Shown piece by piece: positions 7,160 to 54,869 of a DNA stretch of 54,869 nucleotides. The DNA is from an uncultured Agathobacter sp. (GTDB lineage: Bacteria > Bacillota > Clostridia > Lachnospirales > Lachnospiraceae). A program made the translations under genes and the position numbers. Within the stretch, counting starts at the first letter, position 1. Each line of letters begins with the position of its first letter. The stretch is from positions 1 through 54,869 of the forward strand of contig CAMDYX010000014.1 in NCBI GenBank assembly GCA_945910395.1, given 5' to 3'. The notes below the pieces were generated by a model. It saw only the letters and a program-made list of their open reading frames with translations, was not told the origin of the DNA and did not search any database.

Positions 7160-7341
7160 TTCCATTTCGAATGTATGTTTTCTAAATGAATTTGCATATC
7201 TGAATCAGAACCCACTCTCGTTTGTAAAAAGCGTAGCGGTACTAAATTCGTAAGTAATTGCTCATTAAGTGCCGACGCTTTTTAAACGTTCTGATTCAAA
7301 TAGCAAAATTCATTTTTAGAAACACACCTCCGAAATGGGAA
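7160..7341 (+). repeat. Palindromic repeat, copy B (complete, reference copy)
   Basis: A complete copy of the dispersed repeat between rsmB and rlmN. Outer arms TTCCATTTCGAATGTATG and CACACCTCCGAAATGGGAA are inverted repeats. They continue inward through TTTGCATATCTGAATCAGAA against TTCTGATTCAAATAGCAAAA, then CCACTCTCGTTTGTAAAAAG, and a core hairpin of AAAAAGCGT against ACGCTTTTT. Nearly the whole 182 nt can fold into one long hairpin. No protein is implied. The CGCTTTTT end of the core could terminate transcription. Other copies: 1, 18631, 20124, 23832, 27587, 41957, 54809 and perhaps 48161. Confidence 0.9.
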
Positions 7342-18630: not shown

Positions 18631-18803
18631 TTCCGTTTCAGAGAAGTGTTCCTGAATGAATTTGCATATTCGAATCAGAACCCACTCTCGTTTGTAAAAA
18701 GCGTAGCGGTACTAAATTCGCAATAAATTGCTCATTAAGTGCCGACGCTTTTTAAACGTTCTGATTCGAATAGCAAAATTCATTTAGGAACACTTTTCCG
18801 AAA
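18631..18803 (+). repeat. Palindromic repeat, copy C (complete)
   Basis: Complete copy in the same orientation as 7160-7341. It runs from TTCCGTTTCAGAGAAGTG to CACTTTTCCGAAAA with the full internal arms and core. It sits between the permease and xpt. An additional partial right arm follows at 18805. Confidence 0.9.
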
Positions 18804-18804
18804 A

Positions 18805-18853
18805 TTGTGATTCGAATAGTAAAATTCATTCAGAATCACTTTTCCGAAAGTGA
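18805..18853 (+). repeat. Extra right arm of the palindromic repeat
   Basis: GATTCGAATAGTAAAATTCA followed by TTCAGAATCACTTTTCCGAA repeats the right outer arm of copy C directly after it. AATCACTTTT and AAAGTGATT make a small hairpin. It looks like a partial tandem duplication. Confidence 0.65.
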
Positions 18854-20123: not shown

Positions 20124-20198
20124 CTATTTTAGAGAAGTGTTCCAAAGAATGAATTCAAATAGCAAAATTCATTCTAAGGAACATAATTCTGAAATGAG
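20124..20198 (+). repeat. Short palindromic repeat, mini form D1
   Basis: GTTCCAAAGAATGAATT and AATTCATTCTAAGGAAC enclose CAAATAGCAAA; weaker pairing continues outward to CTATTTTAG and CTGAAATGAG. This is the outer hairpin of the repeat with its interior missing. It directly precedes the long module at 20199. Confidence 0.8.
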
Positions 20199-20539
20199 AT
20201 ATTTGGAAAAATGGGGCATAGGCTGGATGCGAGGTATATTTGAATCTGAATTGTGAGATTTGGAAAGATTTGAGGTATCAGAACTGTCGTATACCTAAAA
20301 TCCTTGAAAAATAGCTTTAAAATGCGGCTTTTTCGCTTGAATTGTATTATTTTGAAGGGTGGACTTCGCTGCATACCTAGATATTTGCAATTTCTTAGGT
20401 ACAGGCTAAAATGTATCTGCCGAAATAATACAATTGACCATAAAAAGTACTTAAAAGGCGGCTTTTTTCAAAGATTTTAGGTATGGGAAGAAAATCAACC
20501 GGCGAAATTATACAATTTATCAATCAAGTGATCAGCACA
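20199..20539 (+). repeat. Long-form module, copy 1
   Basis: About 340 nt with an inverted counterpart at 23961-24378. It contains inverted repeats around TACCTAAAATCCTTGAAAAA, a central hairpin TACCTAGATA/TTTCTTAGGTA at 20374-20401, and one ACCGGCGAAATTATACAATT unit near 20499. A conserved open frame of about 60 codons on the - strand is present in both copies but looks like chance. It joins the common repeat at CACAACCCACTCTCG, the same junction as in the other copy. Confidence 0.8.
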
Positions 20540-20668
20540 ACCCACTCTCGTTTGTAAAAAGCGTAACGGTACTAAATTCGCAATAAGTTGCTCATGAAGT
20601 ACCGACGCTTTTTAAACGTTCTGAATTCAAATAGCAAGATTCATTCTTAGGAACACTTTTCCGAAAAG
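20536..20668 (+). repeat. Palindromic repeat, copy D2 (left outer arm replaced)
   Basis: Runs from CCCACTCTCGTTTGTAAAAA through the core hairpin to TTCTTAGGAACACTTTTCCG. The usual left outer arm is absent; the module at 20199-20539 occupies its place. Confidence 0.85.
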
Positions 20669-20727
20669 AGAGAAGAAGTAGAATTGGTTTCGTCAGGATG
20701 ACAAGTTAAGATAAAAAGGGAATAAAC

Positions 20728-22306: not shown

Positions 22307-23860
22307 ATGGCACAGATAAGCGTAAATCATTTGACATTTTATTATGATGGTTGTTTTGACAACATTTTTGAGGATGTATCCTTTTCCATTGACACGAGCT
22401 GGAAGCTGGGATTTATCGGAAGGAACGGAAAGGGGAAGACCACTTTCCTAAATCTTCTTCTCGGTAAATATGAATACAAAGGTTCTATTAGCACCACCAC
22501 GGTATTTGATTATTTTCCATATCAGGTAACGAAGGCGGATTCTTCCCAAAGTGCAGCGGAGCTGATGGAAAAGTGGAAGCCGGGGGTGGAGAGCTGGAGA
22601 GTGCTGTGTGAGCTTGGCCCTTTATCCCTGAATGCAGAGCTGTTGTATCGGCCGTTCTCCACCTTAAGCTTTGGTGAGCGGACGAAGCTGATGCTTGCGG
22701 TACTTTTTTCCGGGGAAAATGATTTCCTTCTGATTGATGAACCTACCAATCATCTTGACAGTAAGTCCCGGGAGATCATAAAAGCATATCTGGCATCCAA
22801 GCAGGGATTTATTCTGGTATCCCATGACAGAGATCTGTTAGATGCCTGCATCGATCATGTGCTGGTCTTAAACAGGGAGACCATTGAGGTAAAGGCAGGC
22901 AATTTTTCTACCTGGTGGGAAAATAAAGAACGTGCGGATCATTTTGCTAAAATGGAAAATGAAAAGCATATGAGAGAAATCAAGAATTTGAAAGCAGCGG
23001 CAGACCGGAGCGCAAGATGGGCAGAGAAAAACGAAAACTCAAAAATCGGATTTGATCCAAACAGAGAGCCTGACCGTTGTATAGATACGAGAGCGTACAT
23101 CGGGGCAAAGACGAAAAAGATGCAGGCCCGTGTCAGTGCATACAACAAACGAATGGATCGGGAAATCGAGCAAAAGGAAGGGCTGCTTAAGGATATCGAG
23201 GAACCGGTAAATATGAAAATCATGCCCCTTGTGCATTATAAGAAAAATCTGGTCAGGGTAAAGAATTATTCGCTGCGCTATGAGGATGCGGCCAATCCTG
23301 TTTTTGAGGGATTGAGCTTTGAGATTAATCAGGGAGAACGGGTATTTTTAAGCGGGGAGAACGGATGCGGAAAATCAAGTGTCATTAAGGTGCTGCTGGA
23401 AAAAGCAGGAGTGGATACGGCGGAACACCGGAAAATGAAGATTGAGGAATCCGGAACCTTTGAGGTAGCCGCAAACCTTGTCATTTCCTATATCAATCAG
23501 GACACCTCCTTTCTTGGCGGCACCCTGAAGGACTATGCAAGAAAGAAAAATTTAGACTACAGTCTGTTTCTTTCCCTGTTAAGGCAGCTGGATTTTGAGC
23601 GTGTGCAATTTGAAAAAAATATGGAGGATTTTTCCGAAGGGCAGAAAAAGAAGGTGTTAATTGCGGCAAGTCTGTTAACACCGGCTCATCTGTATATCTG
23701 GGATGAACCGCTGAATTATATTGATGTTTTTTCAAGAATGCAGATTGAGCGTCTGATTGAGGAATTCAACCCGACGATGCTTCTGGTGGAGCATGATGTT
23801 CGCTTTAAGGAGAAACTTGGAGGGAGGGATGTTCCATTTCAGAATAATGTTCCTGAATGA
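22307..23860 (+). CDS. ABC-F ribosome-protection ATPase, Lsa/Vga-like
   Basis: Soluble tandem ABC ATPase without membrane segments. Members of this branch displace lincosamide, streptogramin A and pleuromutilin drugs from the ribosome. Walker A GRNGKGKTT (near 37) and GENGCGKSS (near 351), signatures SFGERTK and SEGQKKK, Walker B LLIDEPTNHLD, and an interdomain linker of about 80 residues rich in Lys/Arg/Glu (200-290). Opening words YYDGCFDNIFEDVSF resemble Lsa-type proteins. 517 residues. GGAGG precedes the ATG. The last ten or so residues and the stop codon lie in repeat copy E. Resistance is inferred from family and leader; the drug is not known. Confidence 0.85.
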   Translation: MAQISVNHLTFYYDGCFDNIFEDVSFSIDTSWKLGFIGRNGKGKTTFLNLLLGKYEYKGSISTTTVFDYFPYQVTKADSSQSAAELMEKWKPGVESWRVLCELGPLSLNAELLYRPFSTLSFGERTKLMLAVLFSGENDFLLIDEPTNHLDSKSREIIKAYLASKQGFILVSHDRDLLDACIDHVLVLNRETIEVKAGNFSTWWENKERADHFAKMENEKHMREIKNLKAAADRSARWAEKNENSKIGFDPNREPDRCIDTRAYIGAKTKKMQARVSAYNKRMDREIEQKEGLLKDIEEPVNMKIMPLVHYKKNLVRVKNYSLRYEDAANPVFEGLSFEINQGERVFLSGENGCGKSSVIKVLLEKAGVDTAEHRKMKIEESGTFEVAANLVISYINQDTSFLGGTLKDYARKKNLDYSLFLSLLRQLDFERVQFEKNMEDFSEGQKKKVLIAASLLTPAHLYIWDEPLNYIDVFSRMQIERLIEEFNPTMLLVEHDVRFKEKLGGRDVPFQNNVPE

Positions 23861-23963
23861 ATTTGCATATTCGAATCAGAACGTTTAAAAAGCGCCGGCA
23901 CTTAATGAGCAATTTATTGCGAATTTAGTGCCGTTACGCTTTTTACAAACGAGAGTGGGTTGT
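23832..23963 (-). repeat. Palindromic repeat, copy E1 (reverse orientation)
   Basis: Starts TTCCATTTCAGAATAATG inside the end of the ABC-F gene and runs through the core to AAACGAGAGTGGGTTGTG. The orientation is opposite to copies at 7160, 18631 and 20536. It provides the ABC-F stop codon at 23858. The long module follows directly. Confidence 0.88.
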
Positions 23964-24378
23964 GCTTCAGGCTTGATCGATAAACTGTATAATGTCACCG
24001 GTTGATTCGTAAACTGTACTTTTCGCCAGCCGATTAGCAAATTGTATTATTTCTCTGGTCATTTTTCTTCCTGTACCTAAAATCATTGAAAAAAACGGCA
24101 TTTTAAGCGTTTTTTATGGCTGATTGTATGTTTTCGCCGGTTCAAATTTAGCCTGTACCTAAGAAATTGCAAATATCTAGGTATGCAGCGAAGTCCACCC
24201 TTCAAAATAATACAATTCAAGCGAAAAAGCCGTATTTTGAAGCTATTTTTCAAGAATTTTAGGTATACGACAGTTCTGACACCTCAAATCTTTCCAAATC
24301 CCGCACTTCCGCTTCGAATATTCCTTGAATCCATCCTATACCCACTTTTCCAAGTAACTGTTTATTCCATCTGCTCAT
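23961..24378 (-). repeat. Long-form module, copy 2 (inverted)
   Basis: About 418 nt, the inverted counterpart of 20199-20539. Near its repeat-side end it has three imperfect tandem units of about 29 nt (23973, 24002, 24031), each built on AAACTGTATAATGTCACCGG, where the other copy has one. The central hairpin TACCTAAGA...TATCTAGGTA is at 24156-24183. It is followed by a second partial copy of the repeat beginning TACCGTTACGC. Confidence 0.8.
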
Positions 24379-24459
24379 ACCGTTACGCTTATTATAAACG
24401 AGAGTGGGTTCTGATTCGAATATGCAAATTCATTTCAGGAACACAATGCCGAAATGGGA
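24379..24459 (-). repeat. Palindromic repeat, copy E2 (outer part)
   Basis: ACCGTTACGCTTATTATAAA, then CGAGAGTGGGTTCTG, then GCAAATTCATTTCAGGAACA and a terminal CCGAAATGGGA. About 32 nt (CCGTTACGC to GAGTGGGTT) duplicates sequence already present in E1 before the module. The end lies 11 nt before the stop of the - strand exporter gene. Confidence 0.82.
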
Positions 24460-27524: not shown

Positions 27525-27586
27525 ACGCTTTCCAAATAGTAACTAAGGTAATAATATGTCGTTAAATTACAAATGTCAAATAAAAA

Positions 27587-27660
27587 CCACACTTCGGAAT
27601 TGTGCTCCTGAATGAATTCAAATAGCAAAATTCATTCAGGAACACAATTCCGAAATGGGA
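27587..27660 (+). repeat. Short palindromic repeat, mini form F
   Basis: The outer arms are almost perfectly paired: CTTCGGAATTGTGCTCCTGA plus ATGAATT against AATTCATTCAGGAACACAAT plus TCCGAAA, around the loop CAAATAGCAAA. A stem of about 30 bp results. The interior of the full repeat is missing. It lies 39 nt before the MMPL start codon. Confidence 0.88.
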
Positions 27661-27698
27661 TAATAAAAAACGAAGGAAAGATATAAAGGAATTCAAAT

Positions 27699-41956: not shown

Positions 41957-42121
41957 CTGTGTTCCTAAGAATGAATTTTGCTATTTGAATCAGAACTTTT
42001 AAAAAGCGTTGGTACTTAATGAGCAATTTGTTGCGAATTTAGTACCGTTACGCTTTTTACGAAACGGGAGTGTGTTCTGATTCAAATATGCAAATTCATT
42101 CGGGAACACAAATCTGAAATG
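41957..42121 (-). repeat. Palindromic repeat, copy G (complete, reverse)
   Basis: Runs from GTGTTCCTAAGAATGAATTT to CGGGAACACAAATCTGAAAT with the complete core. It lies between the convergent efp and flippase genes and ends 4 nt from the flippase stop codon. The inner hairpin could terminate both. Confidence 0.9.
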
Positions 42122-54773: not shown

Positions 54774-54804
54774 GGGGAATGCAATAGCATTTTTCCCTTT
54801 TTAC
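54774..54804 (+). terminator. Terminator after the permease
   Basis: GGGGAATGC and GCATTTTTCCC form an imperfect stem over an ATA loop, with TTTTTAC following. It precedes the last repeat copy. Confidence 0.6.
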
Positions 54805-54808
54805 TTTT

Positions 54809-54869
54809 GTGTGTCTGAATGAATTTTGCTATTTGAAATCAGAACGTTTAAAAAGCGTCGGCACTTAAT
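54809..54869 (-). repeat. Palindromic repeat, copy I (cut by window end)
   Basis: GTGTGTCTGAATGAATTTTG, TTTGAAATCAGAACGTTTAA and AAAGCGTCGGCACTTAAT are the outer and inner arms in reverse orientation. The rest lies beyond the window. Its terminal GTGTGTCT resembles the end of copy A rather than the GTGTTCCT of other copies. Confidence 0.88.

Follow-up and report, generated by a model that had tools for sequence, protein, structure and literature searches.

The repeat at positions 7160..7341 raises two linked questions: to what class of DNA does this long, near-palindromic, non-coding sequence belong, and which of its parts is shared with other bacteria? The window, by which we mean the whole analysed stretch of 54,869 nucleotides from an uncultured Agathobacter sp., is the complete contig C14 of a 3.14-Mb assembly of 127 contigs (89% complete; home genome, G000). 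Since it is a whole contig and its ends lie within copies, the assembly must have broken inside copies at both termini. The initial annotation had proposed a dispersed, near-palindromic family occurring in both orientations, and the places it listed are indeed, without exception (10/10), copies or parts of one long-hairpin family. With the 7160 copy defined as forward, full copies are present at 7160..7341 (+ strand, between rsmB and rlmN, covariance-model core 7205-7301 on the opposite strand), at 18631..18803 (+, upstream of an xpt-like gene, core 18675-18771, followed by a second right-end fragment at 18805-18849) and, in reverse, at 41957..42121 (-, core 41983-42080). Two copies are cut by the contig ends: 1..88 (+) retains the right portion, i.e. 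the inner loop, right core box and right arm (partial core match 1-63), and the reverse copy at 54794..54869 (-) retains an end and part of the core. Two mini forms have no core, one consisting of two arms (20124..20199, +) and the other (27587..27660, +) carrying exact AATAAAAA target-site duplications on its left (27579..27586, +) and right (27662..27669, +).

Membership held for every listed copy, but those at 23832 and 24379 are not separate: they are halves of one 628-bp composite (23832..24459, -; core 23869-23965), made up of an end with the core (23832-23970), a stretch termed element B (24032-24349) and the other end (24378-24459). Likewise, the copy listed at 20536 has its core and right arm (20536..20671, +; core 20535-20631) but lacks the left arm, and it adjoins the mini form at 20124. 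In both broken places the break is filled by element B, a second dispersed repeat of ~320 bp found beside or inside broken copies; its two occurrences (20208..20525, -, and 24032-24349) are 86% complementary, and it carries its own inverted repeats around TACCTAAAATC and GATTTTAGGTA. Element B also stands between two arms of the window's end family (F1) at L257:4147-4519, where there is no core. Two further features of the window were recorded in passing. The last codons of an ABC-F ORF (22307-23860) are read from the repeat starting at 23832; the best NCBIfam matches of this ORF were the Lsa family (601.7 bits, below the cut-off of 750) and NF000355 (above cut-off). At positions 999-1081, a 12-bp unit resembling GGCCGTGCAGAA is repeated in tandem.

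The family is abundant in its own genome. The core pattern (CGTARCGGTACN{14,44}AAGTRCCGACG) matched exactly 152 times, against 0 for the reversed pattern, and 307 F1 end repeats were found at up to three mismatches (control 0). The suggested density of one copy per 6 kb is right as a local figure but not genome-wide: a 400-kb sample gave 46 matches when all lengths were counted, and the covariance model found 20 cores in it. At one place, in L010, the model matched both strands. This sample consisted of the starts of 20 contigs, picked blind to hits and drawn from contigs not already taken for hits, so that the sample, if biased at all, would err towards too few copies.

According to PMC4133298, MITEs are short elements without a transposase that have inverted ends and target duplications and reach up to hundreds of copies. 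We conclude with high confidence that the window family is a MITE, because it combines inverted ends, 8-bp target duplications, high copy number and a site that is empty in relatives with the lack of a transposase gene of its own. The MITE form suggested at the outset thus stands, and no transposase turned up among those ORFs of the window that were inspected at copies. The consensus is 180 bp long and the copies other than the composite measure 74-182 bp. Their F1 ends read NTCCC[AT]TTTCGGAA, the element being bounded by NTCCC...GGGAN. Among 43 end-to-end copies of the home genome, 14 were flanked by an 8-bp duplication with at most one mismatch (mean 1.04 and maximum 6 in 500 shuffles) and nine by an exact one (shuffled mean 0.28); the duplicated target sites of these copies were 90% A+T. 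An automatic search for exact 8-mers at computed arm ends, which left out elements with less than 220 bases of flank and took identical surroundings once, gave a weak signal (2/59 in the home genome, shuffled mean 0.5; 7/141 in others, shuffled mean 0.55). This was probably due to misplaced arm ends, as the signal became clear once the end repeats set the ends. Regarding empty sites, the rsmB-rlmN pair was without the element in all 28 measurable congeners (29 fetched; one site, congeners only), the gap being -31 to 131 bp. At this single site, the fixed occupation named in advance as counter-evidence was therefore not found. At L233, a loose match lies 1363 bp before rlmN.

The two arms of the hairpin match each other for a median of 63.5 bases (50 elements of the home genome) or 60 bases (150 elements of other genomes; elements with less than 70 bases of flank were left out and identical surroundings were taken once). 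They vary between genomes, often even between copies of one genome, and cannot be aligned across genera. Within the arms, G.U and A.C mispairs numbered 208 to 252 in other genomes and 45 to 51 in the home genome, and a count in the forward sense was also about equal. This lack of G.U excess indicates that the arms are not maintained by RNA folding; decay or correction of the inverted repeats at the DNA level would explain the counts. In two species of one genus (L075 in G086, L095 in G123), at what seems to be the same site, the core and inner arms are kept; the outer arms differ between the two, and each is still self-complementary.

At the sequence level, it is the core and not the ends that other species share, a point missed by the initial annotation. 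The search of relatives recommended there was run with one copy against the home genome and 59 relatives; it reached two relatives and matched the tip only, the arms being quite different. The core pattern was present in 8 of 62 genomes of the genus, again with different arms, and in 21 of 392 genomes of the order (home genome included in both counts), all 21 belonging to one family and representing 13 genera. A scan of named sequences returned at least 114 stretches with the core, mostly titled Lachnospiraceae or with genus names such as Butyrivibrio, Acetatifactor and Mediterraneibacter; named isolates among them include Butyrivibrio strains and Mediterraneibacter catenae. Exceptions among the matches listed were a few MAGs titled Gastranaerophilales, Bacteroides, Schwartzia and Eubacteriaceae, which are possibly mis-binned. 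Covariance model R1 matched 11 of 391 genomes of the class (home genome included) under stricter filters that may miss weak matches, and 11/11 were Lachnospiraceae, a family with 16 genomes among those listed (360 genomes without a match lie outside that listing). Carriage by phages was considered and rejected, viral contigs containing no exact core match. The idea of a shared neighbour gene was also rejected: when 612 ORFs within 3 kb of 150 elements from other genomes (147 loci) were clustered, the largest cluster covered 11 loci, loosely linked and by eye resembling ABC ATPases, the next covered five (tRNA synthetase-like), and tighter cut-offs left none above four.

The core is ~95 nt long, sits at the hairpin tip and bears a GNRA-capped side hairpin. 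In the orientation opposite to that of the 7160 copy, it runs from CGTCGGYACTTA through a variable hairpin to TTAGTACCGYTACG, then ~8 bases, the GNRA hairpin and a closing arm; the ~8 bases after TTAGTACCGYTACG pair with those preceding the first box, and the whole is predicted to form a three-way junction. Folding, proposed earlier as a check, gave -91.4 kcal/mol for the consensus (z -15.9, 200 shuffles). In RNAalifold, 61 sequences yielded 22 pairs with double changes in 13 of them, from an alignment that is not independent of the hairpin; the nine pairs in the two core boxes were invariant, partly because the collecting pattern demands both boxes. The alignment (A2) was prepared by excluding elements whose inner loops are long and thinning similar ones to 68, of which 60 were aligned together with one window copy. 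The eight omitted (L118, L133, L157, L160, L171, L175, L177 and L184) include irregular elements, and the consensus is flattered to that extent. Nothing in the search pattern requires the GNRA loop; it was found in 53 of 59 elements of the home genome (two had other loops, four no stem) and in 124 of 141 elsewhere (eight other loops, nine stemless), there in seven base variants. In the core stems of other genomes, G.U exceeded A.C by 45 to 18, favouring the GNRA strand; the wobble count of the inner hairpin in the home genome (0 to 13) leans in the opposite direction. Among 111 elements located between co-directional genes, 69 have the non-GNRA strand (forward in the 7160 copy) as the sense strand, so that a GNRA strand within host messages is not favoured.

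No catalogued counterpart was found. The core corresponds to no family of Rfam 15: at gathering score the window gave two tRNAs only, and searches with a single copy (up to E 10) and with 16 foreign loci (up to E 1) returned only sub-threshold matches of microRNA-like and similar families to the long hairpin. A literature search by title, with most subscription papers outside its coverage, gave no description of the element or core among the titles listed, and the terms searched for do not occur in PMC10969869.

Three families of end repeats bear the core: F1 of the window, F2 (TAGGYRWTTGCGAAACT) and F3 (GTAACAGTTCAGCC). A further 165 distinct cores from other genomes fit none of these. Outside the window species, F1 with a core was represented by one element (L127, Acetatifactor sp. 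MB2.86). Duplications of 8 bp with at most one mismatch flanked 6/6 foreign F1 elements (one core element and five cassettes), 9/11 F2 and 12/16 F3 elements, and the mispaired controls gave 38/300, 4/300 and 0/300, respectively; up to three bases of play per end were allowed, and same-place repeats of F2 and F3 were removed. Core subtypes I and II were found 10 and 7 times with F2 (L112 is counted twice in this tally, hence one F2 element is double) and 4 and 1 times with F3; with F1, subtype II occurs in the window species (31) and subtype I in L127. Core-less minis of 43-91 bp have F3 ends as well, and so do 32-bp forms with little beyond two ends. The latter, in which two 14-bp ends stand nearly back to back, are located at L312:1495-1526, L315:225-256 and L316:266-297; an exact 8-bp duplication is present at L312 and none at the other two. 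Core-less minis with exact duplications of their own (L289, L295, L312 and 27587 of the window) imply that insertion does not strictly depend on the core, unless these minis lost theirs at a later stage.

Where might the transposase come from? F3 ends are shared with an 1829-bp IS66-type element of the congener G033, whose transposase matched PF03050 (E 5.4e-19, above cut-off) and NF033517 (E 1.5e-38, 132.9 bits, under the cut-off of 180); this element contains no core and has no clear duplication (3 mismatches). GTAA ends are a hallmark of IS66. The F3 elements of G004 have GTAA ends and 8-bp duplications, and a transposase with matching ends was found only in G033. In their ends, their duplications and the PF03050 transposase, the F3 elements thus resemble the IS66 family, members of which have 8-bp repeats according to PMC3281130. 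The window family differs, since its ends are NTCCC without the GTAA start, PF03050 had no match in the 89% complete home genome (nor in G004, which carries F3 cores), and the IS is devoid of the core; an IS66-derived origin of the window copies was rejected on the grounds of the ends and the missing PF03050. No F1 transposase was found among core-less, facing F1 ends in 838 kb of the home genome, where two pairs were inspected, or in the F1-bounded elements of congeners, and no F2 transposase among the matches listed. Pairs of F1 ends ~800 bp apart in congeners were considered as autonomous IS and discarded, their contents being cargo cassettes: in four congeners the cassettes are 784-836 bp long and encode, according to Pfam, a methyltransferase or GNAT domain (L369:354-1189, L370:362-1145, L371:390-1205, L372:329-1164), and in a fifth the cassette is 407 bp long with a small ORF (L373:220-626). 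The cassettes have 8-bp duplications, and no transposase was seen inside any of the five. An apparent core in L314 and L371, suggested by a loose expression, was not found by the covariance model.

We consider it very probable that these elements are miniature transposons moved in trans, modular in build, with a conserved and exchangeable core at the hairpin tip. A transposase supplied in trans would recognise the outer ~20 bp and insert the element into AT-rich intergenic DNA, duplicating 8 bp. The element itself is built from end repeats, variable arms that pair with each other and the conserved ~95-nt core. In the Lachnospiraceae sequences examined, this core is combined with no fewer than three types of ends, and it is absent from the congener's IS that shares one of these.

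What the core does is less certain. That it is shared, structured and exchangeable we hold with good confidence, and that RNA is its working form with moderate confidence, as a candidate. Its most likely role, to which we would give about even chances, is that of a small RNA module helping the element to persist or spread. A more elaborate version, rather unlikely as it stands, is that one GNRA three-way-junction RNA was captured by, and exchanged among, MITEs with unrelated ends across Lachnospiraceae, and that the ~150 copies of one genome are due to the RNA itself aiding the spread or tolerance of its carriers, for example by engaging the transposase, a ribonuclease or host transcripts. The core might instead be a functionless leftover of an ancestral MITE whose ends have diverged or recombined, an ordinary hitchhiking middle whose conservation is an artefact of collecting elements by their core. 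This is a serious contender, if one that we doubt: the core-less minis with exact duplications show the core to be dispensable for insertion, the arms decay without strand bias and the boxes were selected by pattern, but the GNRA loop and the covarying side and inner hairpins are kept though the pattern does not demand them, and the core persists in at least 13 genera in which the arms cannot be aligned. Alternatively, the core could act as DNA, a single-stranded or cruciform hairpin tip serving as a site for a transposase or host protein, comparable to IS200/IS605 or attC. Mini-hairpins of the GCGAAAGC type are unusually stable in DNA too, and the wobble pairs have no consistent overall strand preference, as this reading would have it. 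A DNA hairpin should, however, tolerate GN(Y)A loops, which are absent from the loops recorded; the 8-bp duplications suggest that a DDE-type transposase works on the ends, and the home genome has no match to a Y1 transposase, all of which makes action as DNA improbable.

Two further explanations were weighed. The initial annotation had suggested that the inner hairpin could end transcription in both directions, and the host might retain the copies as bidirectional terminators or operon insulators. T-runs of at least four on both strands beside the core stem (A5/T5 flanks in the window species) do occur in 58 of 59 copies of the home genome, but in only 13 of 141 elements elsewhere, and of 47 home copies with a neighbour on either side, 6 are located between convergent genes, which is no enrichment over the 16 of 93 background gaps of at least 150 bp. 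Moreover, the 7160 copy separates rsmB and rlmN, which are at most 131 bp apart in the 28 measured relatives. The terminator idea would thus fit mainly the window species, bidirectional termination does not hold up as a shared function, and we regard this explanation as very unlikely. Less probable still, to the point of being barely worth entertaining, is that these are REP/REPIN elements mobilised by a RAYT (Y1) transposase. The family does resemble them in being palindromic, intergenic and present in many copies, and has GTAR, a REP feature, at the foot of the core hairpin. It differs in its 8-bp target duplications, which contradict such an origin, and in the lack of a Y1 transposase: PF01797 had 0 matches in the 89% complete home genome and was present in 14 of the 24 genomes searched. 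The regions of 4.5-13 kb fetched around RAYT-like genes of five genomes (four with the exact core, one without) contained no core either. The REP-like label, taken in the RAYT sense, was accordingly dropped.

Returning to the modular miniature transposon that we favour, several known systems can be set beside it. MITEs are named by their ends and normally seen as deletion products of IS. The window family is like other bacterial MITEs (Correia/CREE, MITEAba12 and others) in length, ends, duplications and copy number; unlike those, which are defined by their ends, it has a middle common to elements with unrelated ends. The bcr1 element of Bacillus cereus is a high-copy intergenic repeat with a conserved hairpin; what distinguishes the present family is a core that crosses genera with different arms. 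The F1 cassettes, with their methyltransferase or GNAT genes and duplications but no transposase, are similar to mobile insertion cassettes (MIC231) and TIMEs (PMC4133298 and PMC3281130), whereas the core-bearing elements carry a non-coding cargo that many genera have conserved. As far as sequence comparison reaches, what is new here is a ~95-nt core that recurs across further Lachnospiraceae within elements whose arms differ.

For the family Lachnospiraceae, a major one in the gut, the finding provides an uncatalogued repeat and a candidate RNA family. In practical terms, the repeat breaks assemblies, as both ends of the contig lying within copies illustrate. As the ends change and the middle stays, it becomes testable whether what selection retains in bacterial DNA transposons can be a non-coding module. 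If the reading of the core as a captured small RNA were true, the core would amount to a selfish RNA that travels with DNA transposons.
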